NCBI GenBank assembly: GCA_024637015.1
Contig: JAGXGE010000011.1
Coordinates: 1 to 64,000 of the forward strand
Reading direction: 5' to 3'
DNA: 64,000 nt
Source of the DNA: Aequorivita sp.
GTDB lineage: Bacteria; Bacteroidota; Bacteroidia; Flavobacteriales; Flavobacteriaceae
Part shown: positions 17,487-63,764 of the stretch, in pieces
Position numbering within the stretch: position 1 is the first letter of the stretch
Layout of the letters: each line of letters opens with the position of its first letter
Made by a program: the position numbers and the translations under genes
Notes under the pieces: generated by a model
Told to the model about the DNA's origin: nothing
The model's database searches: none
Seen by the model: the letters and a program-made list of their open reading frames with translations, nothing else

Positions 17487-17530
17487 TTGATAATTATCAT
17501 AAAAAATCAGATTGGTATTTCATAATTTGT
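17487..17530 (+). promoter_or_regulatory. FNR-like box and -7 element upstream of P-type ATPase
   Basis: TTGAT-AATT-ATCAT (17487-17500), nearly the FNR consensus TTGAT-N4-ATCAA, with its dyad centre 29.5 bp before a TAATTTG element at 17523. The expected transcription start is about 20 bp before the ATG at 17554. Confidence 0.7.
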
Positions 17531-17553
17531 AAAGGTTTAATTTTACATAATGT

Positions 17554-20079
17554 ATGGCTGTAGAAAATTTTGACATTCAAGGGCTGTCCGATTCTGAAGT
17601 TTTGGCTGCGCGAGAAAAATTTGGTTCAAACATTCTCGAATCCAAGAAAAGGAATCCATTTTTTGAAGCAATAAAAGGGCTGCTAAAAGAACCAATGGTC
17701 ATTTTGTTGTTGGTTGCAGCTACGCTGTATTTTTTTACGGGAAATACCGGTGACGGAATTTTTCTAGCGGCCGCAATTCTTTTGGTTGCTGCAATATCAA
17801 TCTATCAAGATGCTAAAACCCATGATGCGCTAGAAAAACTCAAGGAACTTTCACAGCCCCATTGTAAGGTAATTCGGAACGGTACGGTTGTGGAAATCAA
17901 GAGCCAAGAAGTTGTGGTTGGTGATTTTTTGATGGTAGAGGAAGGTTCAACCATTGTTGCAGATGGTACCATTGTCCATTCCAATGACTTTTCGGTAAAC
18001 GAATCCATTTTGACAGGAGAATCCTTTTCCGTTGAAAAAAATGCATCTTCCGAGGACAACGTAATTTATATGGGAACCCAAGTGGGTGGAGGTCTTGCCA
18101 TTGCCGAAATATCTGCGGTGGGAAATCAAACAAAGGTTGGGAAAATAGGTAAAAGCATTGAAGATATTTCTTCTGAAAAATCTACGCTTGAACTCCAAAT
18201 AAACAATTTTGTAAAAAAGATGGTAATCGCGGGAGCGGTTGTTTTTCTATTGGTATGGGGAATCAATTATTACAATTCCGGAAACGTTTTGGACAGTCTT
18301 TTGAAGGCGCTCACACTTGCAATGAGCGTTTTGCCGGAGGAAATTCCTGTTGCATTTACCACCTTTATGGCCATTGGTGCTTGGCGACTTATGAATCTGG
18401 GCGTTATCGTAAAACAGATGAAAACCGTAGAATCCTTGGGCAGCGCAACCGTTATTTGTGTTGACAAAACCGGTACGATCACCCAAAATAAAATGGCACT
18501 CGACAGAATTTATACTTTAGAAACCGACAAAATTACTTCGTTGGATGGAACGCTTTCCGAGAGTGAAAAAGAACTCATCACAACAGCAATGTGGGCAAGC
18601 GAGCCAATTCCTTTTGATACTATGGAACAGTCACTACACAAATTTTATCATTCCATGGTCAAAATTGACGATCGCCCAAATTTTAAAATGGTTCATGAAT
18701 ATCCATTGGGCGGCAAACCCCCTATGATGACCCACATTTTTGAAAATGCTGCGGGCCATCGAATCATTGCTGCCAAAGGGGCCCCTGAGGCTCTGATTGT
18801 AGTATCAGATTTAAGTGTGGAGCAAAAGGAAAATATAAAAGGAAAAATCAGTGTTTTGGCCGCGAAAGGATATCGCGTTTTGGGAGTTGGAATATCCTAT
18901 TTTGAAGGAACTACATGGCCGAAAATGCAGCAGGATTTCAATTTTGAATTTAAGGGACTGATTGCTTTTTATGATCCACCAAAGGAAAATATTTCAAAAG
19001 TATTTCAGGATTTTTACAATGCGGGGATAGTTGTTAAAATTATTACTGGGGATATTGCTGAAACAACAATGGCCATTGCTAAAAAAGTGAACTTCAAGGG
19101 TTCGGGGGAAGTAGTTTCAGGAGATGACATTGTGGCTTTGGATGCTATGGAACTGCAAAAAGTTACTTTAGAAAAAAATATTTTTGCACGAATGTTTCCC
19201 GAAGCAAAACTTAAAATAATAAATGCACTCAAAGCACAGGGTCACATAGTAGCCATGACTGGCGACGGTGTTAACGACGGTCCCGCGCTTAAAGCGGCAA
19301 ATATTGGCGTGGCTATGGGGAAGAAGGGTACCGAAATAGCCAAACAATCTGCGTCACTTGTTCTGGTGGATGATGATCTTTCTAAAATGTTGGATGCGGT
19401 GGCGATTGGTAGAAAAATCTATTCCAATCTTAAAAAAGCTATTCAGTATATTATTTCAATACATATACCAATTATCCTCACTGTTTTTATTCCTTTAGTT
19501 TTAGGTTGGGTATACCCAAATATTTTTACGCCCGTACATGTAATTTTGTTAGAATTGATTATGGGACCAACCTGTTCTATAGTTTATGAAAACGAACCCT
19601 TGGAACAAGATTTAATGTTTCAGAAACCGCGACCTTTTACGAGTACTTTTTTCAATTGGAGCGAACTTTTTACAAGTATAATCCAAGGGTTGGCAATTAC
19701 AATAGGTGTGCTAACGGTTTATCAATTAGCGGTCAATTACGGCCATAACGAATCTATAACCAGGACTATGGTCTTTACCACGCTTATAAGCGCCAATATT
19801 GCTTTAACTTTCGTAAACCGTTCTTTCATCTATTCCATTTTCACCACTTTCAAATATAAAAACAGATTGGTGCCGATTATGATTGGCATAACCATTGGCA
19901 TAACTTTGTCACTTCTTTTGGTGCCACCCTTCACTAAATTCTTTGGATTTGAAAGACTTGACATAAACCAGATTGGCATCAGCGTTGGGATTGGTGTGTT
20001 AAGTGCGTTGTGGTATGAAATCTTTAAATGGGGGAAGCGCCAACAAATCTCGAAACACTCTATTTCCAAAGTGCTTTAA
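17554..20079 (+). CDS. cation-translocating P-type ATPase (P2-like)
   Basis: 841 residues. Actuator motif T154-G-E-S, M4 motif P261-E-E-I-P, phosphorylation site D304-K-T-G-T, and the hinge GDGVNDGPALKAANIGVAMG are all present. About ten membrane helices and a cation-ATPase N-terminal domain place it among the P2 (Ca-ATPase-like) pumps. M6 reads ELIMGPTCSIVYENEP and lacks the N-x-x-T-D calcium ligands of SERCA, so the ion is uncertain; Ca, Mn, K or H are possible. An FNR-like box upstream suggests induction with the stress genes of this window. Confidence 0.88.
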   Translation: MAVENFDIQGLSDSEVLAAREKFGSNILESKKRNPFFEAIKGLLKEPMVILLLVAATLYFFTGNTGDGIFLAAAILLVAAISIYQDAKTHDALEKLKELSQPHCKVIRNGTVVEIKSQEVVVGDFLMVEEGSTIVADGTIVHSNDFSVNESILTGESFSVEKNASSEDNVIYMGTQVGGGLAIAEISAVGNQTKVGKIGKSIEDISSEKSTLELQINNFVKKMVIAGAVVFLLVWGINYYNSGNVLDSLLKALTLAMSVLPEEIPVAFTTFMAIGAWRLMNLGVIVKQMKTVESLGSATVICVDKTGTITQNKMALDRIYTLETDKITSLDGTLSESEKELITTAMWASEPIPFDTMEQSLHKFYHSMVKIDDRPNFKMVHEYPLGGKPPMMTHIFENAAGHRIIAAKGAPEALIVVSDLSVEQKENIKGKISVLAAKGYRVLGVGISYFEGTTWPKMQQDFNFEFKGLIAFYDPPKENISKVFQDFYNAGIVVKIITGDIAETTMAIAKKVNFKGSGEVVSGDDIVALDAMELQKVTLEKNIFARMFPEAKLKIINALKAQGHIVAMTGDGVNDGPALKAANIGVAMGKKGTEIAKQSASLVLVDDDLSKMLDAVAIGRKIYSNLKKAIQYIISIHIPIILTVFIPLVLGWVYPNIFTPVHVILLELIMGPTCSIVYENEPLEQDLMFQKPRPFTSTFFNWSELFTSIIQGLAITIGVLTVYQLAVNYGHNESITRTMVFTTLISANIALTFVNRSFIYSIFTTFKYKNRLVPIMIGITIGITLSLLLVPPFTKFFGFERLDINQIGISVGIGVLSALWYEIFKWGKRQQISKHSISKVL

Positions 20080-20173
20080 GTTGTTGATAAACAGTTCTAA
20101 ACTGATTTTCGTCATTTTATAGTTCTTAATTTCACCTTAATTTTGAATAGTGTTTAATCAAAATCCAACCTCA

Positions 20174-20752
20174 ATGAAAAAATCTATTTTTTTGCTTGTA
20201 ATTGCAATCCTGTTTTTTTCTTTTACTGTAAAAGCCCAAGAAAAATGGTCAGTAGAATTTAGACCCGGTCTCAATTTTCCCACTAGTGATGTGGGCAATA
20301 CCGAGGCTAAAGTTGGTTATGGCTTTGAGATTACGGGTGCATACAAAATTATGCCCCATTTGGCTGCATATGTGGGTTGGGGCTGGAACCAGTTTAAAGG
20401 CGAAAATAGATTTTCAAAGGATGATGTTACTTTGAATGAAACTGGATATACGTTTGGTTTTCAGATTATACATCCCATTGGAACTTCTCATTTTTCCTAT
20501 GTGGCAAGTGCTGGCGCGATTTACAATCATATAGAGCTAGAAAACAAAACAGGCGACATCATAACGGACACAGGCCATGGTTTTGGATGGCAAGTGGCAG
20601 CAGGCATTGATTATGAGATTGCCCCAAGTCTATCTTTACGTCCAATGCTTCGGTACCGGTCTCTTTCAAGGAATATGGAGATTGCGAATGTTTCCACAGA
20701 GCTGAAGCTTAATTATATTGCTTTCGGGATAGGCTTGGCTTTGGAGTTTTGA
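20174..20752 (+). CDS. outer-membrane beta-barrel protein
   Basis: 192 residues from the ATG at 20174, chosen because it begins the signal peptide (hydrophobic core, cleavage after VKAQ). The rest alternates in amphipathic strands (WSVEFRPGLNFPTSD, AAYVGWGWNQF, GYTFGFQIIHPIG, HGFGWQVAAGIDYE, LSLRPMLRYRSL) and ends in a C-terminal Phe, as expected of an eight-stranded OmpA/OmpX-like barrel. Function unknown; possibly a small porin or adhesin. The lipid-handling gene downstream may not be related. Confidence 0.8.
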   Translation: MKKSIFLLVIAILFFSFTVKAQEKWSVEFRPGLNFPTSDVGNTEAKVGYGFEITGAYKIMPHLAAYVGWGWNQFKGENRFSKDDVTLNETGYTFGFQIIHPIGTSHFSYVASAGAIYNHIELENKTGDIITDTGHGFGWQVAAGIDYEIAPSLSLRPMLRYRSLSRNMEIANVSTELKLNYIAFGIGLALEF

Positions 20753-22397: not shown

Positions 22398-23372
22398 TTA
22401 AATCGAATCATGCGTTACTTCTTTCAATTTTATATTTTCAAAACCAGGATATATATTTTTAAACTCTACGGTTTCTCCTTGATCATTTTTTCCTTGCAGT
22501 TCGTATTTAATGACCACTTTGGTTCCTAGTGGTGCATAATAATAGACAATCCAAGCGTCAGATTCCCTTAATCCAATACAGCCATTAGAAGAAGGTTTTT
22601 CCAAAGTAGCCAAATTGGTAGTAGGATGAATAAGTTGACCAACACTTCGGCCATTTATTGAAGGTTCCAACCATGGGATAGCGGGTAGCCCAGTTAGTTT
22701 GCCGTCATCTCGATGTGTTTTTACATATTTATGATTATTCTGAGGATTCTTAAATACCGGTTTTTTATTTACTCGTATTATTTCACCTATGCCTGGTTTT
22801 GTCCTCATATCTACTTCCCCTTTAGCCATAGCTAAATATCTTTTGCCAACTTTCCCCACTCTCACGGGAAATTTATATATTTCTTTTCCATCCTGAATTA
22901 TTCGAAGCCTATATTCCGGTATGTTCAGTTCTAAAGAAGTTTTGTCTAACTGGGCATTGAGTTGTTGCGTTTGGATAGAATCGGGAATTTCCAAAACCTG
23001 ACCTTCTTTTAAAGCTATTAGTGATTGTGGATCTTCATTAAAAATCCCTCTATCCATTAGGTAATAATAATCAGTATGTGCTAGCGTGTCCAGAATCCAA
23101 CTGTTATTATGAACAATTATATACTCATCAATACTATAATTGTGGGTTTGGTTATGTTCCGCAACAATGCTATCCATCCATTTAAAATAGGAGCGAATAG
23201 GAATATCTTTGTTGACTACTATTTCAATTGGCAATAATTGTTTTTCTTGTTTTGAAGTATCAACTACCTCATTTATGTTAATTGATTTCTCTTCTTCGTT
23301 ATTCTCTTTATGCTTATTTACGCAACCTATAAATGTGAAGGCGAGAACAAATAATAATAAAGTATTTTTCAT
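22398..23372 (-). CDS. L,D-transpeptidase (YkuD) lipoprotein with LysM-like region
   Basis: 324 residues. A lipobox F-I-G-C17 anchors it, followed by an acidic linker. A central LysM-like stretch (YIIVHNNSWILDT, ALKEGQVLEIPD) precedes the YkuD domain at ~residues 150-305 with the catalytic H249-P and S-S-N-G-C265-I-G-L motif. L,D-transpeptidases make 3-3 crosslinks in peptidoglycan or attach lipoproteins to it. A perfect 14-bp palindrome with a correctly spaced -7 element lies upstream on this strand, so the gene is a likely member of the Crp/Fnr-controlled set. Confidence 0.88.
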   Translation of the reverse strand: MKNTLLLFVLAFTFIGCVNKHKENNEEEKSININEVVDTSKQEKQLLPIEIVVNKDIPIRSYFKWMDSIVAEHNQTHNYSIDEYIIVHNNSWILDTLAHTDYYYLMDRGIFNEDPQSLIALKEGQVLEIPDSIQTQQLNAQLDKTSLELNIPEYRLRIIQDGKEIYKFPVRVGKVGKRYLAMAKGEVDMRTKPGIGEIIRVNKKPVFKNPQNNHKYVKTHRDDGKLTGLPAIPWLEPSINGRSVGQLIHPTTNLATLEKPSSNGCIGLRESDAWIVYYYAPLGTKVVIKYELQGKNDQGETVEFKNIYPGFENIKLKEVTHDSI

Positions 23373-23420: not shown

Positions 23421-23463
23421 CAAAGTATGAATTTAATTATCAAAATGATATGACATTAGTCAT
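23421..23463 (-). promoter_or_regulatory. FNR-like box for the L,D-transpeptidase
   Basis: ATGAC-ATTA-GTCAT (23450-23463), a perfect dyad. On the minus strand the centre is 29.5 bp before a TACTTTG element (23427 to 23421); no such element lies at that spacing on the plus strand, so the box serves the gene starting at 23372. Confidence 0.65.
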
Positions 23464-24553: not shown

Positions 24554-24597
24554 CTGACTAAAATCATTCTTATTACTCAAAATCATAGCTATATTTG
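24554..24597 (+). promoter_or_regulatory. FNR-like box and -7 element upstream of mlaE operon
   Basis: CTGAC-TAAA-ATCAT (24554-24567) with the centre exactly 29.5 bp before a perfect TATATTTG at 24590-24597. The coding start follows at 24615. Confidence 0.7.
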
Positions 24598-24614: not shown

Positions 24615-25391
24615 ATGAATAAAGAAAACTCTATACTAACCGACATTAAATCATTCTTTGCTGAAATTGGCGATATGACTTTTTTTGCAGGACGTTTTTT
24701 TAAAGAAGCGTTAAGCCCCCCTTTTGAGTTTAGGGAACTGCTTCGCCAATGTTATAATATGGGCAATCGCTCTTTATTATTAGTGAGTGTGACTGGGTTT
24801 ATTTTAGGGCTTGTGTTCACGCTACAGTCGCGACCCACTTTGATGCAGTTTGGCGCACAATCCTGGATGGCCTCCATGGTGAGTCTTTCCATTGTTCGTG
24901 AAATCGGGCCTGTAATAATAGCACTTATCTGTGCTGGACGAATAGGCTCGGGAATTGGTGCAGAGCTTGGCTCTATGCGTGTTACAGAGCAGATAGATGC
25001 AATGGAGGTTTCGGGCACCAACCCTTTTAAGTATTTGGTTGTTACCCGTATTGCGGCCACAACTTTGATGTTACCTTTGTTGATAATTATGGGAGATGCC
25101 ATCGCTCTTTTTGGTTCGGCTTTAATTGAAAATTTAAAAGGTAATGTTTCTTATTTGCTTTACTTCAACCAAGTTTTTGACGCCTTAAAATTCAGCGATA
25201 TAATTCCACCAACGATAAAATCCGTTTTCTTTGGTTTTGCCATTGGATTGGTAGGGTGCTATAAGGGTTATTATTGTTCTAAAGGAACCGTCGGGGTTGG
25301 AGAGGCGTCAAATTCCGCTGTGGTTTATATCTCAATGTTACTGTTTGTAATTGATTTTATTGCCGTTTTTGTAACCGATATATTTATTTAA
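24615..25391 (+). CDS. mlaE: MlaE-type ABC transporter permease
   Basis: 258 residues, five to six membrane helices. It has the MlaE family run LVSVTGFILGLVFTLQ, the conserved IVREIGPVIIALICAGRIGS and GAELGSMRVTEQIDAMEV stretches, and the C-terminal YISMLLFVIDFIAVF. It forms the inner-membrane part of a lipid transporter with MlaF and MlaD, which moves phospholipids between inner and outer membrane. The three genes form an operon with short spacings (6 and 4 bp). An FNR-like box precedes it. Confidence 0.92.
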   Translation: MNKENSILTDIKSFFAEIGDMTFFAGRFFKEALSPPFEFRELLRQCYNMGNRSLLLVSVTGFILGLVFTLQSRPTLMQFGAQSWMASMVSLSIVREIGPVIIALICAGRIGSGIGAELGSMRVTEQIDAMEVSGTNPFKYLVVTRIAATTLMLPLLIIMGDAIALFGSALIENLKGNVSYLLYFNQVFDALKFSDIIPPTIKSVFFGFAIGLVGCYKGYYCSKGTVGVGEASNSAVVYISMLLFVIDFIAVFVTDIFI

Positions 25392-25397
25392 GTATAA

Positions 25398-26150
25398 ATG
25401 AATTCAAAAAAAAACATAAAACCCGTACTAGAGTTAAAAAATCTTCAAAAAAGTTTTGGAGACAACCATGTGCTTAAAGGTTTTAATCTAAAGCTTTTTG
25501 AAGGCGAAAACTTGGTAGTGATGGGCAAATCAGGTTCGGGAAAATCGGTGATGGTAAAATGTTTGGTGGGTTTAATTCAGCCTGACAGTGGTAGTATTAC
25601 TATTCAAAATCAGGATATAACATCCATGGGCCATAAAGAGCTAGACTTGTTGCGCACCGAGATTGGTTTTCTTTTTCAGGGCAGTGCATTATACGATTCT
25701 ATGACTGTGCGCGAAAATCTGGAATTTCCGCTGCGGCGACATAAAGATAAAATAGAAAATTTTCAAGGAACCGAAATTTTGGTAAAAGAAGCTCTGGAGA
25801 ATGTAGGTCTGGCAGATGCTATAGATTTGATGCCAGCAGAACTTTCTGGTGGGATGCAGCGACGGGTGGCTTTGGCACGAGCGTTAATCTTGAAACCAAA
25901 AATTATTATGTATGACGAGCCAACAACGGGTTTGGATCCAATCACAGCTAAGGAAATTATCCTGTTGATGCGAAATATTCAAAAAAAATATCATACTTCC
26001 TCACTTATTATCACACACGATGTGGACTGTGCGAGAGTAATCTCAAACAGGATGATTTTGTTGGTGGATGGAATCAATTATGCCGAAGGAACTTTCGAGG
26101 AGCTTTCAAACTCAAGCGATCCACAGGTTCAGGCATTCTTTAAAAATTAA
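25398..26150 (+). CDS. mlaF: MlaF-type ABC transporter ATP-binding protein
   Basis: 250 residues. Walker A MGKSGSGKS, Q-loop FLFQGSALYDSMTV, signature LSGGMQRRVALARAL, Walker B IIMYDEPTTGLDP and H-loop IITHD are intact; the SALYDSMTVRENLEFPLRR region is characteristic of MlaF. It energises retrograde or anterograde phospholipid transport with MlaE. It begins 6 bp after mlaE. Confidence 0.93.
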   Translation: MNSKKNIKPVLELKNLQKSFGDNHVLKGFNLKLFEGENLVVMGKSGSGKSVMVKCLVGLIQPDSGSITIQNQDITSMGHKELDLLRTEIGFLFQGSALYDSMTVRENLEFPLRRHKDKIENFQGTEILVKEALENVGLADAIDLMPAELSGGMQRRVALARALILKPKIIMYDEPTTGLDPITAKEIILLMRNIQKKYHTSSLIITHDVDCARVISNRMILLVDGINYAEGTFEELSNSSDPQVQAFFKN

Positions 26151-26154
26151 TGTT

Positions 26155-27141
26155 ATGGGAAAATCAACTTCACAAAAAATTAAGGTCGGTGTTTTTGTAG
26201 TAATAGGAACAATTCTTCTTGTTGCTGCACTTTATTTTATTGGAAACAAGCAACATTTGTTTAATAAAAATATTGAAATTTATGCCACATTCGCAAATGT
26301 AAACGGCTTAACCTTGGGTAACAACGTACGCTATTCTGGAATTAACGTTGGCACTGTGAGCAAAATAGAGATGATTGATGAAGGAACTATCACTATTCAA
26401 ATGATGGTGGAGGATAAAACTTCAAAATTCATTAAAAAAGATGCGATAGCTTCCATTGGATCAGATGGATTGGTAGGAAGTATGGTTGTAAATATTACTC
26501 AAGGAAAAGTTCAAAACGCAAAACACGTAAGCGCAGGCGATACCATTCAGTCATATAGTAGAATTGGGGCCGACGACATGCTTTCCACTCTGAACACAAC
26601 CAATGAGAATGCCGCGTTATTGACTGCTGATTTGTTAAAAATAACCAATAAAATCCTTGAAGGTAAAGGTACTTTGGGTGCATTGGTAAGCGATACCTTG
26701 TTAGTTCAAGACATTCGTCAGTCTGTTGCAGAACTCAAAAAAACCACCATGGGCACTTCTGCTGTAATTTCAAAAATCAATACTATTATTTCAAAAATAA
26801 ATTATGACGAAAGTGCTGCAGCAGTATTTTTGAGCGATACCGTTTCTGCCAACCAAATTAAACAAGTATTTGCCAACCTAGAAAAATCGAGTAATGATAT
26901 AAATGAAGTAACCAAAAATTTGGATGAGTATATTAAAGAAATAAAATCAGGAAAAGGAACTTTAAATTATGTTACACAGAATGAAGTTTTGGTCAAAAAT
27001 ATTGACTCTACAATGATTAATATAAAAGAAGCTACCGAGAAACTAAACGAAAATATGGAAGCCCTAAAGCACAATTTTCTATTCCGTGGATATTTTAAAA
27101 AGCTCGAACGGCAAGAAAGAAGAGAAGCCAAGGAAAACTAA
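26155..27141 (+). CDS. mlaD: MlaD-family (MCE domain) lipid-transport protein
   Basis: 328 residues from the ATG at 26155. One N-terminal anchor (VGVFVVIGTILLVAALYFIG) is followed by an MCE domain (YATFANVNGLTLGNNVRYSGINVGTV to residue ~115) and a long helical tail (~140-328) with ILEGKGTLGALVSD-like repeats. MCE rings bind lipids in the periplasm. Unlike E. coli MlaD (183 aa), this has a long coiled tail, as in MceG/Mce proteins of other phyla. It ends the mlaEFD operon; no mlaA, mlaB or mlaC is present here. Confidence 0.88.
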   Translation: MGKSTSQKIKVGVFVVIGTILLVAALYFIGNKQHLFNKNIEIYATFANVNGLTLGNNVRYSGINVGTVSKIEMIDEGTITIQMMVEDKTSKFIKKDAIASIGSDGLVGSMVVNITQGKVQNAKHVSAGDTIQSYSRIGADDMLSTLNTTNENAALLTADLLKITNKILEGKGTLGALVSDTLLVQDIRQSVAELKKTTMGTSAVISKINTIISKINYDESAAAVFLSDTVSANQIKQVFANLEKSSNDINEVTKNLDEYIKEIKSGKGTLNYVTQNEVLVKNIDSTMINIKEATEKLNENMEALKHNFLFRGYFKKLERQERREAKEN

Positions 27142-27192: not shown

Positions 27193-27825
27193 ATGCTCAA
27201 TAATTTAAAAGAAAATTTTACTAATATTTTTGAAGATGCACTTATTGAGGAAATAAACCAAATTGGAACTTTAAAAGAAGTAAAAGAAGGGGAAAAACTA
27301 ATAGAGATTGGTGAATTTGTCCGATCTATGCCGTTACTTATTTCTGGGGCGATAAAAATTTTGAGGGAAGATGATGACGGGGACGAACTATTGCTTTATT
27401 TTTTAGAACGTGGCGATACATGCGCAATGACTTTAACATGCTGTTTGGGTCAGAAAAGAAGTGAAATCCGTGCTATCGCAGAGCTTGATACAACCTTGAT
27501 AATGATTCCCATCCAAAAAATGGAGGAGTGGACGGGCAAGTACAAGAGTTGGCGCAATTTTGTATTCCAAAGCTATCACGAACGCCTAACGGAAATGTTC
27601 GAAACCATTGATAGTATTGCTTTCTATAATATGGATGAGCGCTTGGTAAAATACCTTCAGAACAAACAAAAGGTCACCAACGATCCATTGATTAATTCAA
27701 CACATCAGGAAATCGCTTATGAACTGCATACTTCGCGAGTAGTGGTTTCGCGTTTGTTAAAAAAACTAGAAAACTTGGGAAAAATAGAACTTTATAGAAA
27801 TAGCATCAAGATCATTTCGCTTTAG
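27193..27825 (+). CDS. Crp/Fnr-family transcriptional regulator
   Basis: 210 residues. Effector-binding cNMP-like domain at ~20-125 (KEGEKLIEIGEFVRSMPLLISGAIKI, then LLYFLERGDTCAMTLTCC), long dimer helix, C-terminal winged helix (THQEIAYELHTSRVVVSRLLKKLENLGKI). There is no N-terminal Cys cluster, so it is not a [4Fe-4S] FNR; three Cys lie in the beta-roll (CAMTLTCC). Ligand unknown. A GTAAC-N4-GTTAC box starts 37 bp after its stop, and this regulator is one of two candidates for the box sites in the window. Recognition-helix residues SRVVVSRLLKK fit Crp-family binding. Confidence 0.88.
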   Translation: MLNNLKENFTNIFEDALIEEINQIGTLKEVKEGEKLIEIGEFVRSMPLLISGAIKILREDDDGDELLLYFLERGDTCAMTLTCCLGQKRSEIRAIAELDTTLIMIPIQKMEEWTGKYKSWRNFVFQSYHERLTEMFETIDSIAFYNMDERLVKYLQNKQKVTNDPLINSTHQEIAYELHTSRVVVSRLLKKLENLGKIELYRNSIKIISL

Positions 27826-27861: not shown

Positions 27862-27905
27862 GTAACTTTTGTTACTACCAAAAAAATCTTCTTAGGATAT
27901 CTTTA
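27862..27905 (+). promoter_or_regulatory. GTAAC-N4-GTTAC box and -7 element upstream of peroxiredoxin remnant
   Basis: Perfect GTAAC-TTTT-GTTAC (27862-27875); centre 29.5 bp before TATCTTTA (27898-27905). Transcription would start about 27909, directly before the peroxiredoxin remnant, and could run into the cytochrome gene. Confidence 0.65.
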
Positions 27906-28151: not shown

Positions 28152-29174
28152 ATGAAATTACTTGCCATAGCTTTATTTGGAAGCATTTTATTTGCTTGCA
28201 ATACACAAACCAAAGATTCCTATTTTGTTATACACGATGTTTCTGGGGATTTGGCAATGGCAACTCCTCAAGAACATCCTGGGAAGAAGTTAATGGAAAA
28301 CAATTGTTACGCTTGTCACAATCCAAAAGCTTCAGAAGAAAATATCATTGCCCCGCCTTTTGTAGCTGTAAAGATGCATTATATTTCTGAGGACACTTCC
28401 AAGGAAGATTTTGTAAAAGCAATGATAGAATGGTCCAAAAAACCTTCCGAAGAAAAATCAAAAATGCCAGGAGCAGTTAAAAAATTTGGATTGATGCCCT
28501 ATCAATTTTTTCCAGAGGAAACCATACGGCAAATTGCTGATTATATGTTCGATGATGAAATAGAAGAACCAGTCTGGTTTGGAGAGCATTATAACAAAAT
28601 GCACGGCGACCGCCCAATGATGAAAGGGAAAATGGGTCGTGGAAAAGGCATGGGGATGAATAAAAAACAAGCTAACACCAACAAACAACTTTCTGTTGAG
28701 GAACGCGGAATGCAAATGGCGCTAACTACCAAAACTGAACTTGGTAAAAACCTCATGGGTCAAATCCAAAAAAACGGAGTAATTGCCGCACTTGATTTCT
28801 GTAATGTGCAAGCCTTGCCTATAACTGACAGTATGGCTACCTTTCATAAAGCGCACATTAAACGTGTTACTGACAAACCTAGGAACCCAAAAAATAAGGC
28901 TAATGCTGCGGAATTGCAATACTTAGAAAATTTTAAAGCACAAGTTGCTGCGGGTGGCGAAGTGAAGCCGATTACAGTACAAATGGGCAATAAATCCGAA
29001 TTTTATTACCCAATCGTAACTAATTCTATGTGCCTAAAATGTCATGGTACGCCCGGAAAGGAATTAGAAAATCTTACTTTGTCCAAAATAAAGGAGCTTT
29101 ACCCAACTGATAAAGCTATAGGTTATGCGGAAAACGAAGTGCGAGGAATTTGGAGTATAAGCTTTGAAAAATAG
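28152..29174 (+). CDS. lipoprotein with cytochrome c and DUF3365 (Tll0287-like) heme domains
   Basis: 340 residues, lipobox F-A-C16. Two c-type heme sites are seen: C52-Y-A-C55-H in an N-terminal cytochrome c domain (residues ~40-140), and C294-L-K-C297-H in a C-terminal DUF3365 domain (~180-340), whose start QMALTTKTELGKNLMGQIQK and LDFCNVQALPITDSM are typical. The linker is rich in Met, His, Lys and Gly (HYNKMHGDRPMMKGKMGRG) and may bind metal. Likely an outer-membrane or periplasmic electron-transfer or redox/gas sensing protein. It follows a Crp/Fnr box and a broken peroxiredoxin, and is 3 bp from a methyltransferase gene. Confidence 0.85.
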   Translation: MKLLAIALFGSILFACNTQTKDSYFVIHDVSGDLAMATPQEHPGKKLMENNCYACHNPKASEENIIAPPFVAVKMHYISEDTSKEDFVKAMIEWSKKPSEEKSKMPGAVKKFGLMPYQFFPEETIRQIADYMFDDEIEEPVWFGEHYNKMHGDRPMMKGKMGRGKGMGMNKKQANTNKQLSVEERGMQMALTTKTELGKNLMGQIQKNGVIAALDFCNVQALPITDSMATFHKAHIKRVTDKPRNPKNKANAAELQYLENFKAQVAAGGEVKPITVQMGNKSEFYYPIVTNSMCLKCHGTPGKELENLTLSKIKELYPTDKAIGYAENEVRGIWSISFEK

Positions 29175-29759: not shown

Positions 29760-29832
29760 TTTTAAACCTTAGTTACGATTCAATAACTTTTTTTAGAGTT
29801 TATAAAGTCTTTTTTTGACTAAAATTTGCATT

Positions 29833-31173
29833 ATGAAAATTAAACAATTTGAATATAAACCGCTTTCACATTTTTCATACGCCATTATTAGCGATGGAAA
29901 AATGGCTTTGGTGGATCCAGAAAGAAACCCGATACAGTATTATAAATACGCAGAAGAAAACGATGCTCAGATAGTAGCTGTTTTTGAAACCCATCCACAC
30001 GCTGATTTTGTGAGTTCGCACTTACAAATTCATGAAGAAACGGGAGCAACACTTTATTGTAGCAAAAAAACGGGTGCCGATTATCCACATTCGCCTTTTG
30101 ACGATGGCGATATGGTAAGAATGGGAAATACAACTTTTAAAGCCATCAATACTCCAGGACACTCTCCAGATAGCATAACCATCCTGGCTAATGAAGAAAA
30201 CAAAACAGCACTTTTTACTGGCGACACTTTATTTGTGGGCGATGTAGGTCGTCCAGATTTGCGCGAAAAAGCTGGACATGTGAAGGCCAAACGAGAGGAA
30301 TTGGCCAAAATGATGTTTGAGACTATTCAAAATAAGTTTTCAGATTTACCAGACAATGCATATGTATATCCAGCACACGGAGCGGGTTCGCTTTGTGGAA
30401 AAGGGATGAGCGATGATGCTTCATCGAGCACACTTGGCAATGAAAGAGTGGGAAACTGGGCATTTAAAAAACAAACTGAAAAGCAGTTTGTAGATTACCT
30501 GCTAGATTCACAGCCTTTTATTCCGCACTATTTTGGCTATAATGTTGATGTGAATAAGAACGGGGCTAAAAACTTACGCGCTGCTTTGGGTAAAATTCCT
30601 TTTCGATCAAATGTTAATAGCGTCACTAAAGGAGCTTTATTGATAGATATTAGGGAGGCAGATGATTTCAAAAAGAAACATCTTCCTGGAAGCATAAATA
30701 TTATGGCTACTTCCGAAACCTCTAAATTTGAGACTTGGCTTGGGTCCATTGTCCGTCCTGATGAAGAATTTCATTTGGTAGTTGATTCCGCTGCGAGCAT
30801 AGAAAATATTCTTAATCGAACAGCTAAAATTGGGTACGAGGTAAATGTTAAAACCATTTTAACCTTAGGTGAGGGGGTTTCCGAAAAATCGACTGGGTTT
30901 AATTTGGAACACTTTAAAAATAATATTAATGATTATACTATTGTTGATATTCGAAATGAAACCGAAGTTTCCGAAGGTGAGTTTTTTGAAAATAGCATAG
31001 TTATTCCTTTATACCAATTACGGGAGAAAGCGAGTCAAGTGCCAACAGATAAACCCATTGTGGTACATTGTGCTGGCGGTTACCGCAGTGCTGCTGGGGC
31101 AAGTATTTTGCAGAAAGAACTTCAGATCAAAAACGTATTTGACCTGAGTGATGATGTTGAACATTTTAAATGA
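29833..31173 (+). CDS. persulfide dioxygenase-like MBL protein with two rhodanese domains
   Basis: 446 residues from the ATG at 29833. The N-terminal metallo-beta-lactamase domain (ETHPHADFVSSH, TPGHSPDSI, FTGDTLFVGDVGRPDL, HGAGSLCGKGMS) is of the ETHE1/BlhA type; the usual D-H of HxHxDH is D-F here. Two rhodanese domains follow (~260-350 and ~360-446); only the second keeps the active Cys, in VHCAGGYRSA. Probable role: oxidation of glutathione or other persulfide to sulfite, with rhodanese sulfur transfer, in the cytoplasm. Its stop abuts that of convergent upp. Confidence 0.88.
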   Translation: MKIKQFEYKPLSHFSYAIISDGKMALVDPERNPIQYYKYAEENDAQIVAVFETHPHADFVSSHLQIHEETGATLYCSKKTGADYPHSPFDDGDMVRMGNTTFKAINTPGHSPDSITILANEENKTALFTGDTLFVGDVGRPDLREKAGHVKAKREELAKMMFETIQNKFSDLPDNAYVYPAHGAGSLCGKGMSDDASSSTLGNERVGNWAFKKQTEKQFVDYLLDSQPFIPHYFGYNVDVNKNGAKNLRAALGKIPFRSNVNSVTKGALLIDIREADDFKKKHLPGSINIMATSETSKFETWLGSIVRPDEEFHLVVDSAASIENILNRTAKIGYEVNVKTILTLGEGVSEKSTGFNLEHFKNNINDYTIVDIRNETEVSEGEFFENSIVIPLYQLREKASQVPTDKPIVVHCAGGYRSAAGASILQKELQIKNVFDLSDDVEHFK

Positions 31174-35337: not shown

Positions 35338-35381
35338 GTAATCTTTGTTACATAGCTTCCCGGCTTACAACCTTATATTTG
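35338..35381 (+). promoter_or_regulatory. GTAAT-N4-GTTAC box and -7 element upstream of DUF302 gene
   Basis: GTAAT-CTTT-GTTAC (35338-35351), one mismatch from the GTAAC-N4-GTTAC dyad; centre exactly 29.5 bp before a perfect TATATTTG (35374-35381). Confidence 0.7.
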
Positions 35382-35891: not shown

Positions 35892-35935
35892 GTAACATTA
35901 GTTACTGACCAACCTTGATTTCTAATGTATTTTTG
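35892..35935 (+). promoter_or_regulatory. GTAAC-N4-GTTAC box and -7 element upstream of RND operon
   Basis: GTAAC-ATTA-GTTAC (35892-35905), perfect dyad; centre 29.5 bp before a perfect TATTTTTG (35928-35935). The TolC gene starts at 35955. Confidence 0.7.
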
Positions 35936-35954
35936 CATCAAATTTAATATAGCA

Positions 35955-37259: not shown

Positions 37260-37265
37260 TTAGAA

Positions 37266-38345: not shown

Positions 38346-38347
38346 TC

Positions 38348-42255: not shown

Positions 42256-42299
42256 ATGACTTTGGTCATTTTAAAACCTACAAATATTGAATATATTTG
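42256..42299 (+). promoter_or_regulatory. FNR-like box and -7 element upstream of HPF-Usp unit
   Basis: ATGAC-TTTG-GTCAT (42256-42269), perfect dyad; centre 29.5 bp before a perfect TATATTTG (42292-42299). Transcription would start about 42303, upstream of the HPF ATG at 42326. Confidence 0.75.
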
Positions 42300-46616: not shown

Positions 46617-46662
46617 ATGACATTAATCAGTTAACAAAAACTATTTAAAATCCTTACTTTTG
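46617..46662 (+). promoter_or_regulatory. FNR-like box and -7 element upstream of the histidine kinase
   Basis: ATGAC-ATTA-ATCAG (46617-46630), one arm mismatched; the centre is 31.5 bp before a perfect TACTTTTG (46655-46662), 2 bp more than at the other sites. The start codon at 46667 is so close that a leaderless transcript is likely. Confidence 0.5.
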
Positions 46663-47904: not shown

Positions 47905-48954
47905 ATGAAAACAATACTTCTAATAGAAGACGACAGCGCATTAAGAGAAAATACTGCGGAGCTTTTAGAACTTTCCGGTTTTAAGGTTTTTACTGCGCCA
48001 AATGGTAAAATTGGTATCGAAAAAGCAAAAAATGAAAGTCCAAATATCATTATTTGCGATATAATGATGCCCGAAATAGATGGCTATGGAGTTTTGGAAG
48101 CGGTTACTTCTGAAGAAAAAACCAAACATATTCCCTTCATATTTCTTTCAGCAAAAACGGAACACAAAGAAATCCGCAAAGGAATGGATTTGGGCGCCGA
48201 TGATTACCTCACAAAACCTTTTGATGAAGAGGAATTGCTGAGTGCCGTGGAAAGCCGTTTGGCAAAAGCAAGCATTTTGGCAATGCGCAAAAATAGTAAA
48301 GAAGACCAGGCAGAGGATGATGAAAACCTACAAAACCTGAATCAATTAAAAAACTTTTTTTGTGATGAAGGCCAAGTAGTCAATTATAAAAAGGGTGAAA
48401 CAATCTTCAGAAAGGGTGACCACTCCAATAGTATGTTTCTTATTTTAGAAGGAGTGGTGAAAACACATACAATGGACGCCAACGCCAAAGAACTTATTAC
48501 AGGGCTTTACAAAGCCGATGATTTTTTGGGTTTCACTTCTTTTGACGATAACATCCCTTACAGCGAAACGGCTACAGCTGTTGAAAATACTGAAGTTGTT
48601 GGTGTTTCAAAAAAATATGTGAAGGATATTTTGAAAAAAAGCCAAGATGTTTCATTAGAATTGGTAAATCTTCTCACTGATAATCTCTCAGAAATAAAAC
48701 AACAATTGCTTAAAATGGCCTACAGTTCTGTTCGGAAAAAGACTGCCGCCACAATTCTTCAGTTTGTAGATATAATGAACAAAAAACCTAGTGCTCCTTT
48801 ACGAATTTCCCGGAACGATTTGGCCACCACAGCGGGAATAGCTACTGAAAGCTTGATCCGAACCCTTTCCGATTTCAAGAAAAATGGCATCATAGAAATT
48901 GAAGGCCGCGATATTCACATTATCGATTTGGAAAGTTTGCGGGAAATTGAATGA
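47905..48954 (+). CDS. response regulator with receiver, cNMP-like and Crp helix-turn-helix domains
   Basis: 349 residues in an unusual order: receiver domain 1-120 with D9/D10, phosphoacceptor D52, S82 and K104; linker ~120-145; cNMP-binding-like beta roll ~150-250 (YKKGETIFRKGDHSNSMFLI, then GLYKADDFLGFTSF); dimer helix; Crp-type winged helix ~290-349 (RISRNDLATTAGIATESLIR, LSDFKKNGIIEI). A kinase-regulated Crp protein. With the Crp/Fnr gene at 27193 it is a candidate binder of the boxes. The start follows the kinase by 11 bp. Confidence 0.9.
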   Translation: MKTILLIEDDSALRENTAELLELSGFKVFTAPNGKIGIEKAKNESPNIIICDIMMPEIDGYGVLEAVTSEEKTKHIPFIFLSAKTEHKEIRKGMDLGADDYLTKPFDEEELLSAVESRLAKASILAMRKNSKEDQAEDDENLQNLNQLKNFFCDEGQVVNYKKGETIFRKGDHSNSMFLILEGVVKTHTMDANAKELITGLYKADDFLGFTSFDDNIPYSETATAVENTEVVGVSKKYVKDILKKSQDVSLELVNLLTDNLSEIKQQLLKMAYSSVRKKTAATILQFVDIMNKKPSAPLRISRNDLATTAGIATESLIRTLSDFKKNGIIEIEGRDIHIIDLESLREIE

Positions 48955-49019: not shown

Positions 49020-49063
49020 CTGACTTTTATCATTTCCTGTACCGACACTTAAGGATATTTTTG
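49020..49063 (+). promoter_or_regulatory. FNR-like box and -7 element upstream of Usp
   Basis: CTGAC-TTTT-ATCAT (49020-49033); centre 29.5 bp before TATTTTTG (49056-49063), perfect -7. Start codon at 49083. Confidence 0.7.
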
Positions 49064-49082: not shown

Positions 49083-49922
49083 ATGATGAATATATTGATT
49101 CCGACAGATTTTTCCGAAAATGCACGTAATACCATTCGGTATGCGCTGGACTATTTTGCTGATATTCCCGTGAATTTTTATATTCTACATATCTCTCTCA
49201 AAGAGTCAGGTCACAAAAATGAAGATGCAGACGGGTTTTTTGAACTACTCGAAAACAAAAAATTAGTTCAAACTGCTATGGGTATGTTGCAGGAAGAAAT
49301 TAAAACCTGTAAACTCTTAGCTAACAACCCCAAACATTTTTTTTATCCGCTTTACGAAAATATGCTTTTGGTTGAAGCAATTAGGAAACATATTGATGAA
49401 AAGGAAATTAATTATATTCTAATGGGCACCAGAGGCGCAATGAAAATTAATCGCAGCGAAATAGGTAGCAACTCAAGTGAAGTAATCACTAAAGTTAAAT
49501 GTCCAATATTGGTTATTCCTGAAAAGGCAAGGTTTAATAAAATAAAAAATATTGCTTTTTTGACTGATTATAACTACATATATCGAAACAAGGTTACTAA
49601 CTCACTTTCACAATTATTACACTTACAGGGAGCCGCGCTGAGAGTACTACATATTCGTTCTCAAAACAACGGACTTTCTGTAGCGCAAACCGATAACAAA
49701 GGATTTCTGCATTATTTTTTTAGAGAAACCAAACACAGTTTTCATTTTTTGGAGAATAAAAATATTGAAACAGGAATCCAAGATTTTGTTGAAACTTGGG
49801 AAATAGATATGATTGCCATTGTGGCTAAAAACCTAAACTTCATTCAGCGACTACTTTTCAAACCAGTTATCAATTCCATAAAGTACCAAAGCGAAGTGCC
49901 TTTTTTAATTCTTCACGAGTAG
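49083..49922 (+). CDS. tandem universal stress protein
   Basis: 279 residues, two Usp domains; the first has an intact ATP loop G-T-R-G-(9)-G-S (MGTRGAMKINRSEIGS), the second is degenerate (no G-x-x-G). The start NILIPTDFSENARNTI is canonical. It has its own box and promoter, and is followed by a 430-bp gap. Confidence 0.9.
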   Translation: MMNILIPTDFSENARNTIRYALDYFADIPVNFYILHISLKESGHKNEDADGFFELLENKKLVQTAMGMLQEEIKTCKLLANNPKHFFYPLYENMLLVEAIRKHIDEKEINYILMGTRGAMKINRSEIGSNSSEVITKVKCPILVIPEKARFNKIKNIAFLTDYNYIYRNKVTNSLSQLLHLQGAALRVLHIRSQNNGLSVAQTDNKGFLHYFFRETKHSFHFLENKNIETGIQDFVETWEIDMIAIVAKNLNFIQRLLFKPVINSIKYQSEVPFLILHE

Positions 49923-50281: not shown

Positions 50282-50325
50282 TTGATATTTATCATACTTT
50301 TTCAATTTGATTATTACTATCTTTA
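50282..50325 (+). promoter_or_regulatory. FNR-like box and -7 element upstream of the Usp array
   Basis: TTGAT-ATTT-ATCAT (50282-50295), nearly the FNR consensus; centre 29.5 bp before TATCTTTA (50318-50325). The Usp array starts at 50353. Confidence 0.7.
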
Positions 50326-50352: not shown

Positions 50353-51198
50353 ATGCGAAAAATACTCATTCCCACTGATTTCTCTAAAAACTCATGGAAT
50401 GCTATAAAGTATGCCACGGAGCTTTTTAAATATGATCACTCTGAAATTTATCTTTTGCATGCTTTTGCCGATGAGGTGTATGACGCTAAAGCCAGACTTA
50501 CAGAAGAAATTTTCGATGAACTCCAGGAAAAAATACTTGAGAAATCAAAAGAGGCACTAGAATATTTTAGTAATCAAATTATTAAGTTTTCGCCAAATCC
50601 CAAACATAAAATACACACTATTGCAGAATTTGGAATGTTGGTAGATTCTGTAAATGATTGGGTTGAAAAAGAAAACATAGATGTGGTAGTTATGGGAACC
50701 AAGGGGCAGACGGAAGATAAAAAACTGACCTTTGGCAGCAACACGCTTCAGGTTATTAAATACGTAAAATGTCCCGTACTTGCTATTCCTTCAGTTTATA
50801 AAGACGTACATCCGAAAAATATTTTGTTTCCAGCAGATTTTCATTTGCCATACAAACGTCGCGAATTAAAATTGGTGAGCTATATAGCTAAGTCTTTTGT
50901 TTCAAAAATAAACTTTCTCTATGTTTCGAAATTTACAGGTCTTTCTTTGCGACAGCATGATAACAAAAGCTTCTTGGAGGCTTCTTTTTCTGAAAATCAA
51001 ATTGACTTTCAACAAAAAAAAGGTAGTAATGTTACAAAAGAAATTAATACCTTCATTATTGAAAACCCAATAGATATGCTGGTTATGGTAAACACTCGTC
51101 ATTCGTATTTGGAAAATATACTTTATCAATCAACTATTGAAAAAATAGGGTTGCATATAGACATTCCTTTTTTGGTACTTCAAAATCTTCCTCGTTAA
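50353..51198 (+). CDS. tandem universal stress protein
   Basis: 281 residues. Start RKILIPTDFSKNSWNAI. First domain has an intact ATP loop (G-T-K-G-QTEDKKLTF-G-S); the second lacks it. It opens the five-gene run Usp-Usp-Usp-ATP-cone nuclease-MBL, with gaps of 18, 41, 3 and 1 bp. Confidence 0.9.
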   Translation: MRKILIPTDFSKNSWNAIKYATELFKYDHSEIYLLHAFADEVYDAKARLTEEIFDELQEKILEKSKEALEYFSNQIIKFSPNPKHKIHTIAEFGMLVDSVNDWVEKENIDVVVMGTKGQTEDKKLTFGSNTLQVIKYVKCPVLAIPSVYKDVHPKNILFPADFHLPYKRRELKLVSYIAKSFVSKINFLYVSKFTGLSLRQHDNKSFLEASFSENQIDFQQKKGSNVTKEINTFIIENPIDMLVMVNTRHSYLENILYQSTIEKIGLHIDIPFLVLQNLPR

Positions 51199-51216
51199 TC
51201 TTTAAAAATTGTTGCA

Positions 51217-52065
51217 ATGAAAAAAATACTTCTTCCAACCGATTTCTCAAAAAATGCCTATGCGGCTTTGTTTTATATTGCAAAACTTTTTAATGATGAG
51301 GCTTTGCAGATAACCATTCTTCATTCTTTTGGAGAAGAAATTGATAAGTTGACGAGCCGTGTGGATATTGGTCGTTCCGATAACATCATTGAAAAACTTT
51401 ACAGCCAATCAGAAGAAGATGGCAAGCAATTAATGCATAAAATAAAATTAGACACAGGGAAACTGCCACATTCCTACCATATGGTTTCCACGCCAGCACA
51501 ATTATCACAAGTCATTAACAAGATGGTTGCCAACGAAGGCTATGACCTCGTAGTGATGGGCACCAAAGGCCGAACGGGTGCCGAAGATGTGCTTATGGGA
51601 AGCACCACTGTAAATATCACCAAGAGCCTAGAAGGCTGTCCGTTACTCATTATTCCGCGCGAAGTGGATTTTGTAATTCCTTCAAATATCACTTTCGCTT
51701 CAGACTACAATGATTTTTTTCAGCTTTCAAAGTTGAAACCTTTGCTGCAATTAGTAAGACAATATAATTCAACAATACACATGGCGCACGTTGGCAAAAA
51801 AAATGAACTTACAGAAAAGCAACTTTATAATTTGGAACAATTTGAAAATGATTTAACCGAATTTGACACAGAATTTCACTGGCTTCAAAAAAAAGAAAAC
51901 ATTTCGAAAACCCTTCACAATTTTATTGACGAAGAGCAAATGGATTTGCTAGCGTTGGTATATCACAAGCATGCTTTTATAAAACAACTTTTCAGGGAAC
52001 CTGTTGTAAGCAGGGTAGGCAAGCATGCACATACCCCAACTTTGGTAATTCCAATAAAAAATTAG
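51217..52065 (+). CDS. tandem universal stress protein
   Basis: 282 residues. Start KKILLPTDFSKNAYAAL. First-domain ATP loop G-T-K-G-RTGAEDVLM-G-S is intact; the second domain is degenerate but keeps the alternating strand pattern. Member of the Usp array, 18 bp after the previous Usp. The paralogues here are only moderately similar, which suggests old duplications with separate roles. Confidence 0.9.
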   Translation: MKKILLPTDFSKNAYAALFYIAKLFNDEALQITILHSFGEEIDKLTSRVDIGRSDNIIEKLYSQSEEDGKQLMHKIKLDTGKLPHSYHMVSTPAQLSQVINKMVANEGYDLVVMGTKGRTGAEDVLMGSTTVNITKSLEGCPLLIIPREVDFVIPSNITFASDYNDFFQLSKLKPLLQLVRQYNSTIHMAHVGKKNELTEKQLYNLEQFENDLTEFDTEFHWLQKKENISKTLHNFIDEEQMDLLALVYHKHAFIKQLFREPVVSRVGKHAHTPTLVIPIKN

Positions 52066-52106
52066 AATTTTTAAGAGAAAACGAAATATTGACTAAATAA
52101 AAAATT

Positions 52107-52958
52107 ATGAAAAAGAGAATATTGATACCTACAGATTTTTCAAAAAATGCCTTCAATGCTATTAAATATGCAATTGAACTTTACAAAAGGGAATATTGCG
52201 AATTCTTTATACTCCATTCTTATTATCTTCCTGGATATTCTAAGGATAACCTGTTGGTACCAGAGCCCAGTGAAAAAAAATTGATCGAGGTAAAAGAGCG
52301 TTCCGAAAAAAACATTGAAAAATTAAAGGTAAAAGTTCAGTTTAATGATGGCAACACTAACCATAAGATCCATTTCTTGAATGAATTTGGTCCTTTTTAC
52401 GATGTCCTCAAAAAAACTATTGAAAAGGAAGATATTGAACTAATAATTATGGCAACGCGGGGTGAAACAGATGACAAAAATGTAATTCTGGGGAGCAATG
52501 CGGTAAAAACCATGGAAAAAAACAGGAATTGTCCAGTATTTGCCATTCCTGGTAATGTGATGTTTAAAGACCCAAATGAGATTGTGTTTCCAACCAGTTT
52601 TAAAACACATTACAAAGAAAAGGAACTTGCTACTTTGATAGAGATTTCGCGCTTGACCAATGCACCAATTCGAATTTTGCACGTTCAAAAAGGCAAAGAA
52701 TTGAGCAAAGAGCAACTGGAAAATAAAACTTTACTCGATCGTATTTTAGACTCCACAACATTTACACATCACGAGTTATATAATGTAGATCTGCAGGAAG
52801 GGGTTCGCTGTTTTGTGCAAAGCCGAGAGAGCGAAATGATTGCTTTTGTTAACAAGAAGCATAATTTCTTTGAAAGTATTTTTTCAAACCCGATGGTTAA
52901 AGAACTTGGAATGCACACCAACGTCCCACTTCTGGCTATGCACGACTTGCGAAATTAA
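52107..52958 (+). CDS. tandem universal stress protein with altered ATP loop
   Basis: 283 residues. Start KKRILIPTDFSKNAFNAI. The first-domain loop reads M-A-T-R-G-ETDDKNVIL-G-S: the first Gly of G-x-x-G is Ala, unlike the other Usps here, so ATP binding may be weakened. The second domain has no loop. The third Usp of the array; the ATP-cone nuclease gene starts 3 bp after it. Confidence 0.88.
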   Translation: MKKRILIPTDFSKNAFNAIKYAIELYKREYCEFFILHSYYLPGYSKDNLLVPEPSEKKLIEVKERSEKNIEKLKVKVQFNDGNTNHKIHFLNEFGPFYDVLKKTIEKEDIELIIMATRGETDDKNVILGSNAVKTMEKNRNCPVFAIPGNVMFKDPNEIVFPTSFKTHYKEKELATLIEISRLTNAPIRILHVQKGKELSKEQLENKTLLDRILDSTTFTHHELYNVDLQEGVRCFVQSRESEMIAFVNKKHNFFESIFSNPMVKELGMHTNVPLLAMHDLRN

Positions 52959-61731: not shown

Positions 61732-61740
61732 TGTAAATAT

Positions 61741-63003: not shown

Positions 63004-63006
63004 TTT

Positions 63007-63621: not shown

Positions 63622-63637
63622 CTTTCAACTTTATGGT

Positions 63638-63661
63638 TTAACCATTTGGTTAACAAAGATA
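63638..63661 (-). promoter_or_regulatory. predicted TetR operator and -7 element
   Basis: TTAACC-ATTT-GGTTAA (63638-63653), a perfect 16-bp dyad. Directly upstream on the minus strand a perfect -7 TATCTTTG is at 63661-63654, which places the start within the dyad. Bound repressor would block initiation. Confidence 0.7.
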
Positions 63662-63720
63662 AATAATTTTTATGTGCATAAAAATTATTTAGGACAATAC
63701 TGAAAATTATCTGTAAATGA

Positions 63721-63764
63721 TTGATAATTATCATTTTTGAAAACAGTAACTTACTTTAAGTTTA
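63721..63764 (+). promoter_or_regulatory. FNR-like box and -7 element before the last lipoprotein gene
   Basis: TTGAT-AATT-ATCAT (63721-63734), identical to the P-type ATPase box; centre 29.5 bp before TAAGTTTA (63757-63764). The next start codon is at 63877, so a ~110-nt leader is implied. Confidence 0.6.

Follow-up and report, generated by a model that had tools for sequence, protein, structure and literature searches.

Two Crp-superfamily proteins as probable activators at one fixed promoter layout in Aequorivita and its relatives

The window discussed here (positions 1-64000, that is, 64,000 nucleotides, of the 226-kb contig C23 of an Aequorivita sp. genome, G000, which comprises 3.22 Mb in 39 contigs and is 99.98% complete) holds a series of Crp/Fnr-type palindromes at a fixed distance from a Bacteroidota -7 element. 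It is quite probable that these serve two Crp-superfamily activators using one and the same layout, with the dyad centred at -41.5: a fusion of a receiver with a Crp protein would read the TGAY boxes, and a stand-alone regulator the GTAAY boxes. The proteins in question are the following:

47905-48954, plus strand: response regulator (receiver, cNMP-binding fold and Crp helix-turn-helix (HTH), helix ATESLIRT), the proposed TGAY-box reader, hereafter the fusion
46667-47893, plus strand: histidine kinase whose single PAS domain is akin to the heme-PAS of DosP/FixL, directly preceding the fusion
27193-27825, plus strand: stand-alone Crp-family regulator, recognition helix SRVVVSR (NtcA-like), the proposed GTAAY-box reader

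All eleven palindromes listed by the first-pass annotation of this DNA were found at their positions, and the constant spacing it had pointed out was borne out, as in ten of the eleven the dyad centre lies exactly 29.5 bp ahead of the first base of the -7 element (distances are given in this way throughout, 29.5 bp being a 23-bp gap). The -7 element reads TAnnTTT[AG] in eight of these ten and, just as had been described, has the 7-base form TAnTTTG at the sites of 17487 and 23450. The eleventh dyad, at 46617, does show the 31.5 bp previously given for it on the plus strand, yet its minus strand has an exact 29.5 bp to TAGCTTTA, and a pattern scan of the window additionally retrieved a perfect site that had been overlooked (core at 20103-20114, 29.5 bp from TAATTTTG). 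The sites, with the genes that they precede, are:

17488..17529, plus strand: TGATAATTATCA and TAATTTG (7-base -7 element), 29.5 bp; ahead of a cation P-type ATPase, 17554-20079
20103..20145, plus strand: TGATTTTCGTCA and TAATTTTG, 29.5 bp; ahead of an OMP_b-brl gene, 20150-20752
23421..23462, minus strand: TGACTAATGTCA and TACTTTG (7-base -7 element), 29.5 bp; ahead of a YkuD L,D-transpeptidase, 22398-23372
24555..24597, plus strand: TGACTAAAATCA and TATATTTG, 29.5 bp; ahead of mlaE-ABC-mlaD, 24615-27141
27862..27905, plus strand: GTAACTTTTGTTAC and TATCTTTA, 29.5 bp; ahead of cytochrome c/Tll0287-like (28152-29174), TPMT and metallo-beta-lactamase-rhodanese genes
35338..35381, plus strand: GTAATCTTTGTTAC and TATATTTG, 29.5 bp; ahead of a DUF302 gene, 35419-35808
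35892..35935, plus strand: GTAACATTAGTTAC and TATTTTTG, 29.5 bp; ahead of OEP-HlyD-AcrB efflux genes, 35925-41545
42257..42299, plus strand: TGACTTTGGTCA and TATATTTG, 29.5 bp; ahead of a two-frame HPF-like stretch, 42326-42624, and Usp, 42634-43470
46618..46629, both strands, between divergent genes: dyad 29.5 bp from TAGCTTTA (minus strand, gene 46150-46554) and 31.5 bp from TACTTTTG (plus strand)
46150-46554, minus strand: gene of a 134-residue protein that matches no Pfam family; runs divergently to the kinase gene
49021..49063, plus strand: TGACTTTTATCA and TATTTTTG, 29.5 bp; ahead of Usp, 49083-49922
50283..50325, plus strand: TGATATTTATCA and TATCTTTA, 29.5 bp; ahead of a Usp gene run, 50353-52958
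63722..63764, plus strand: TGATAATTATCA and TAAGTTTA, 29.5 bp; a 210-residue open reading frame (ORF) starts about 113 bp further (L032:1656)

The earlier remark that such constancy would be hard to obtain by chance agrees with every control applied. TGAY-N4-RTCA followed at 23 bp by TAnnTTT[AG] occurs 7 times in the window, compared with a mean of 0.01-0.015 and a maximum of 1 in its dinucleotide shuffles (200), and five control dyads of similar composition give 0 at 29.5 bp within the window. When the whole genome was scanned for a dyad followed by TANNTTTG after 8-38 bp, 12 of the 19 pairs retrieved had a gap of exactly 23 bp, the reversed-pattern control giving 4 over this entire range; with one mismatch permitted, the 23-bp gap has 34 matches versus 5 for the control, and 18 of the 34 lie on contig C23 (226 kb of 3.22 Mb). 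For GTAAY-N4-RTTAC with TANNTTTG at 8-38 bp, the genome as a whole has 2 matches (control 0), which share a gap of 23 and are located in the window. Among the 148 genomes of the same order that were searched, the 21 belonging to the window's family hold 207 exact TANNTTTG-pattern sites, versus 5 for the reversed control.

For the neighbourhood analysis, the best 80 of at least 591 relatives of the fusion were kept (the closest among the matches listed being that of Aequorivita todarodis, 90%) and divided, by taxon label and identity, into 56 near loci, mostly from Flavobacteriaceae genera (1.05 Mb in total, with 794 dyad-strands), and 24 far loci, from other Bacteroidota by label, one of them labelled as an Azovibrio metagenome-assembled genome. 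The near loci hold 238 sites at exactly 29.5 bp (105 with TAnnTTTG and 133 with TAnnTTTA; 3 more end in C or T) and every one of the 56 has at least one, with 0 to 3 sites each for the G and A forms at 28.5, 30.5 and 31.5 bp, 0 at 29.5 bp for all five control dyads and a mean of 0.2 in twenty shuffles. Two of the 238 fall inside an ORF of at least 200 residues, and an ATG follows 10-29 bp past the -7 box in 177 of 232. The prospect that an A+T-rich genome with abundant TAnnTTTR boxes and short palindromes could have produced all this by chance is negligible: lone palindromes are indeed frequent, as the 794 dyad-strands and the approximately 8 per shuffled window illustrate, whereas the peak of 238 versus 0.2 and the family-wide 207 versus 5 concern their spacing. 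Chance is already refuted for the geometry, and single weak sites may still be due to it.

The proteins encoded downstream of the near-loci sites were grouped by single-linkage clustering, with one member per unknown cluster scanned, and half of them (115 of 230, in 51 loci) belong to Usp clusters; the others include relatives of the 134-residue protein (27), HPF (S30AE; 10), thioredoxin (7), MlaE (5), CcoNO (4) and Hsp20 (3). In a second fusion set, 13 of the 16 loci have sites at 29.5 bp (48 in total), the exceptions being L081, L083 and L086. In loci L073 and L074, a single dyad between the kinase gene and the small gene diverging from it is exactly 29.5 bp away from a -7 box to both sides.

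As for what these promoters might be, -41.5 is the class II activator position of CRP and FNR in Escherichia coli, where activation from such a position is established. The sigma-A -7 box TAnnTTTG of Flavobacterium psychrophilum maps to -12 to -5 (PMC9723704), and a dyad centre 29.5 bp before a box so placed therefore lies at -41.5. Should the same placement of the box hold in the present genome, the promoters would be of class II, the 29.5 bp being exact here and the start position being carried over from the F. psychrophilum map of transcription starts, which accords with the first-pass placement of the dyads near -41; the accompanying statement that no -33 element is needed was likewise upheld, a consensus -33 not being seen beyond the box edge. 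It is conceivable in principle that a dyad at -41.5 serves repression instead, the sites being operators, or a mixture, whose fixed spacing would block RNA polymerase, and ten dyad/TANNTTTR pairs at 15.5-17.5 bp (counts 4, 3 and 3), found in a comparison set of 17 FNR-type loci (L089-L105), place the dyad near -28, where it would suit repression by FNR. We nevertheless consider repression at the 29.5-bp sites very unlikely, as 238 of them at one exact position, without any spread along the promoter, fit activation, and so does the absence of a -33 consensus past the box; activation is, accordingly, what we infer.

As for the signal of the fusion, the kinase lies directly upstream of it in 53 of the 56 near and all 24 far loci. 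Among solved structures, the kinase PAS domain is best matched by DosP (1.9e-19) and FixL (4.7e-17), and in the DosP alignment it has His and Arg at the positions of the DosP residues that we take to be the heme ligand and the oxygen-binding residue, respectively. Of the near rows, 51 out of 54 have the His at the DosP/FixL heme-His position, and of the far ones 24 out of 25 (the window's row being included in each), as do 12/12 of a smaller alignment, 7/12 of which have the Arg; this smaller alignment comprises the window's kinase and 11 fusion-adjacent kinases more than 30% identical to it, out of 15, with four more distant ones excluded. On the side of the fusion, Asp52 and Lys104 of the receiver are invariant in all 17 sequences aligned. 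The proposed course of events would then be that oxygen leaves the heme of the kinase PAS domain, the kinase phosphorylates Asp52 of the receiver, and the Crp half of the fusion binds the TGAY-N4-RTCA dyad and contacts RNA polymerase, such that at low oxygen the fusion might turn on the sigma-A class II promoters of Usp, HPF, cbb3 oxidase and related genes. The boxed genes had earlier been taken for a low-oxygen, nitrosative or stasis response, of which the low-oxygen and stasis flavour holds, given the cbb3 oxidase, CcoI-type ATPase, radical-SAM/HemN-like, ScdA-hemerythrin and Usp genes.

The GTAAY boxes follow the other regulator. Around relatives of the 27193-27825 protein (30 loci, 104 kb), GTAAY-N4-RTTAC has 19 sites in 17 of the 30 loci (five control dyads: 0, 0, 1, 2 and 0), 9 of the 19 being followed by a -7 box at the exact 29.5 bp and three by one at other distances. 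The recognition helix of these relatives reads RVV[VI]SR in 27 of 30 and REV in 3, and the box is present in 17 of the 27 versus 0 of the 3. The sites in L108, L111, L113 and L133 are followed by a metallo-beta-lactamase-like protein (named by likeness to 29815-31173), and other genes after 29.5-bp GTAAY sites are those of an outer-membrane-efflux-like protein and, in L109, the Crp gene itself with the gene preceding it. Cyanobacterial NtcA reads GTA-N8-TAC, and the 27193-27825 protein resembles it in the R-V-x-V-[ST]-R helix, the GTAAY-N4-RTTAC box and, probably, a dyad near -41.5; among solved structures, NtcA (2xgx) is its second-best molecule (E 4.5e-9), behind 3dv8. Unlike for NtcA, the targets are not nitrogen genes, and the sequence similarity is distant. 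The protein would thus be expected to read GTAAY-N4-RTTAC and to drive the cytochrome c, metallo-beta-lactamase-rhodanese, DUF302 and efflux genes.

The distribution of the fusion across genomes places it next to a second type of regulator, the iron-sulfur (Fe-S) FNR. The full-length fusion is present in 16 of the 148 genomes of the order, 13 of them among the 21 of the window's family, whereas the exact TANNTTTG pattern occurs in 83 of the 148, some of which do not have the fusion. Using L089 as a query, a Cys-rich FNR was found in all eight family genomes lacking the fusion (52-100% identity), which is why these have sites too, and in 9 of the 13 having it. It was not found by this query in the present genome, G039 and G102, where L089 matches the fusion alone, and in G072 the query finds only a 31% relative; sites are nonetheless kept in all four (12, 6, 3 and 9, respectively). 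The recognition helices, of the E-x-x-x-R type, are nearly identical (the fusion has ATESLIR and most Cys-rich FNRs ATES[CA]IR, with TATES-x-IR in common), so the same box is expected for both, and the Crp half of the fusion is devoid of the N-terminal CxxC of the Fe-S FNR, which 15 of 17 stand-alone relatives have. Three matches to HTH_Crp_2 (PF13545) exceed the cut-off in the present genome, namely the fusion, the 27193-27825 protein and one on contig C6. Taken together, the L089 search and the likeness of the helices mean that the fusion can be the sole reader here, save for the Crp protein on C6, and it appears to act in place of the Fe-S FNR in this genome.

Two narrower ideas concern the fusion. 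That the TGAY box is exclusive to it was rejected, FNR-only genomes having TGAY boxes as well, and a -7 box of its own (TAnnTTTA versus TAnnTTTG) is retained as a hint only. The eighth -7 base is A in 31, G in 16 and C in 1 of the sites in the set of 16 fusion loci, versus G in 15 and A in 0 in the 17 FNR-type loci (Fisher 6.5e-6 without the C row), and over the 21 family genomes the counts are A 142 and G 153 with the fusion versus A 23 and G 54 in the FNR-only ones (Fisher 0.0045). It remains a hint because the FNR-locus sites repeat the same promoter kind from several genomes and because seven of the eight FNR-only genomes are from one genus, inside which the contrast is weak (5, 6 and 3 versus 3, 1, 1, 0, 4, 4 and 6).

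In the far loci the layout is doubled. Their spacing peak lies at 51.5 bp (23 sites in 13 of the 24 loci, versus 5 sites at 29.5 bp), and a class I reading of this peak was dropped, as a second dyad stands 22 bp downstream, at 29.5 bp and so, by the reckoning above, at -41.5, with 14 of the 23 matching 5 or 6 of the 6 bases there. Exact TGA-N6-TCA pairs number 24 at 22 bp (12 loci) and 7 at 23 bp, compared with no more than 2 for each of the other spacings up to 60 and 0.1 in shuffles; the near loci have 3 tandem pairs at 22 bp. The genes after the tandem or 51.5-bp sites include those of the kinase (7 loci), CcoNO (4), Usp (4) and radical-SAM/HemN-like proteins (2), in a list where the -7 box is imperfect in some cases and each pair is counted on both strands. 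It would therefore appear that the -41.5 position was kept and a site at -63.5 was added or lost.

Several observations weigh against the pairing of two activators with two boxes. The FNR-only genomes of the family also hold exact sites (4, 2, 7, 5, 5, 8, 6 and 17), and three fusion loci from another family (L081, L083 and L086) have no 29.5-bp site, though they do have tandem pairs (1, 2 and 1, with one 51.5-bp site apiece). Among the near rows only 37 of 54 keep the distal heme Arg, and among the far ones 12 of 25, so that oxygen may not be the signal in all of them. The C6 Crp protein (L016; HTH at C6:85044-85202), being a stand-alone Crp above the Pfam cut-off, could also read TGAY boxes, since its helix VETVIR (the protein has no Cys) retains the E and R typical of TGA readers; that it, and not the fusion, should be their reader here is, however, quite improbable, as the sites concentrate around the fusion, with the above-mentioned 18 of 34 on its contig and 238 around its relatives. 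Lastly, TGAY dyads are found near relatives of the 27193-27825 protein too (13 in 11 of the 30 loci), and this, along with the exact spacing common to both box types, could be taken to mean that one global Crp/Fnr protein reads both boxes, leaving the fusion and the 27193-27825 protein with other targets. We regard such a single reader as improbable: GTAAY boxes at 29.5 bp number 9 in the 30 loci of the 27193-27825 relatives, but 1 in the 16 fusion loci and 0 in the 17 FNR-type ones, the base-contacting helix residue differs (V versus E), and the PF13545 search yields three Crp proteins in this very genome. The single Crp/Fnr regulon initially proposed had to be given up for the same reason, as GTAAY and TGAY are two site families that track different regulators, in the window as well as among relatives.

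Beyond the two activators themselves, a broader scenario, to which we would give about an even chance, is that low-oxygen and dormancy genes of Bacteroidota are controlled via a compressed FixL-FixJ-FixK pathway, in which a heme-PAS kinase and a receiver-Crp fusion act at sigma-A promoters and the -41.5 layout stays constant across changes of reader, sensor and site number. In Flavobacteriaceae a single dyad would suffice, and in some lineages, the present one included, the fusion would have taken over the sites of a lost Fe-S FNR; other Bacteroidota would employ this regulator at a pair of dyads spaced by 22 bp (-63.5 and -41.5), likewise ahead of the kinase, Usp, cbb3 and HemN-like genes, and a second Crp paralogue would have copied the layout for a different half-site. 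The sigma factor of Bacteroidota is unusual and few of their activators have been mapped, and this scenario, if true, would provide the phylum with a defined low-oxygen circuit comprising hundreds of predictable promoters, as well as with a built-in comparison of one site under three regulator states (Fe-S FNR, kinase-driven fusion, or both), making activator action at a promoter without a -33 element and the survival of a regulon after the loss of its regulator directly testable. The sites could also serve directly to annotate how Usp, HPF and cbb3 genes are regulated in the family.

Such a system has several known counterparts. E. coli FNR (4Fe-4S) class II promoters and alphaproteobacterial FixK/FnrN promoters have the same TGAY/RTCA half-sites with a dyad at -41.5, where those described here would lie too, and their targets likewise include cbb3 oxidase, CcoI-type ATPase and HemN-like genes; unlike in FNR, however, a receiver replaces the Fe-S cysteine region here, and the promoters have the Bacteroidota -7 box TAnnTTTR rather than -10/-35. 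With rhizobial FixL-FixJ-FixK the system has in common a PAS related to the heme type, a histidine kinase, a receiver, a FixK-like Crp output and cbb3 targets, but its receiver and Crp output are fused (two proteins instead of three), the output is cNMP_binding plus HTH_Crp_2 without the FixJ/LuxR-type domain, and the commonest targets are the Usp genes. In the Mycobacterium DosS/DosT-DosR dormancy regulon, a heme-sensor kinase controls Usp, Hsp20 and cation-ATPase genes, although DosR is a NarL/LuxR-type regulator and the heme of DosS/DosT sits in GAF domains, so this likeness would be one of convergence. The class II geometry itself is already known. The literature search, which covered few subscription papers, found no paper on a receiver-Crp fusion, FNR site or class II promoter in Flavobacteria, nor, in the text accessible to it, any description of the fusion as a carrier, of the kinase link, of a site handover between regulators or of the change between single and tandem sites; Flavobacteriales CRP/FNR homologues are assigned to carbon sensing in PMC8510549, the accessible part of which does not treat the present system.

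Some smaller observations concern the surroundings of the sites. The island is not confined to the window, as the designation "window-wide" had implied, but extends to at least 103 kb on contig C23, with outliers on other contigs; in G000:C23:65364-103000, the genes after sites are those of Usp, cytochrome c, an ADP-forming acyl-CoA synthetase-like protein, acetyl-CoA hydrolase, ScdA-hemerythrin, CcoI-type ATPase, ccoNO, an alginate-export-like protein and a radical-SAM protein. At G000:C17:40070-40143 and C32:4165-4238, a single dyad has a -7 box 29.5 bp away on each side (one box of each pair being mismatched), and these are candidate shared divergent class II promoters. Relatives of the 134-residue protein at 46150-46554, an uncharacterised partner of the island, are present in 33 of the 56 near and 0 of the 24 far loci. 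The HPF-like gene at 42326-42624 occupies two reading frames (ORFs 42326-42442 and 42451-42624); the second ORF matches Ribosomal_S30AE (4.3e-07) and the first has no match, and the split may be a sequencing error or a real break.

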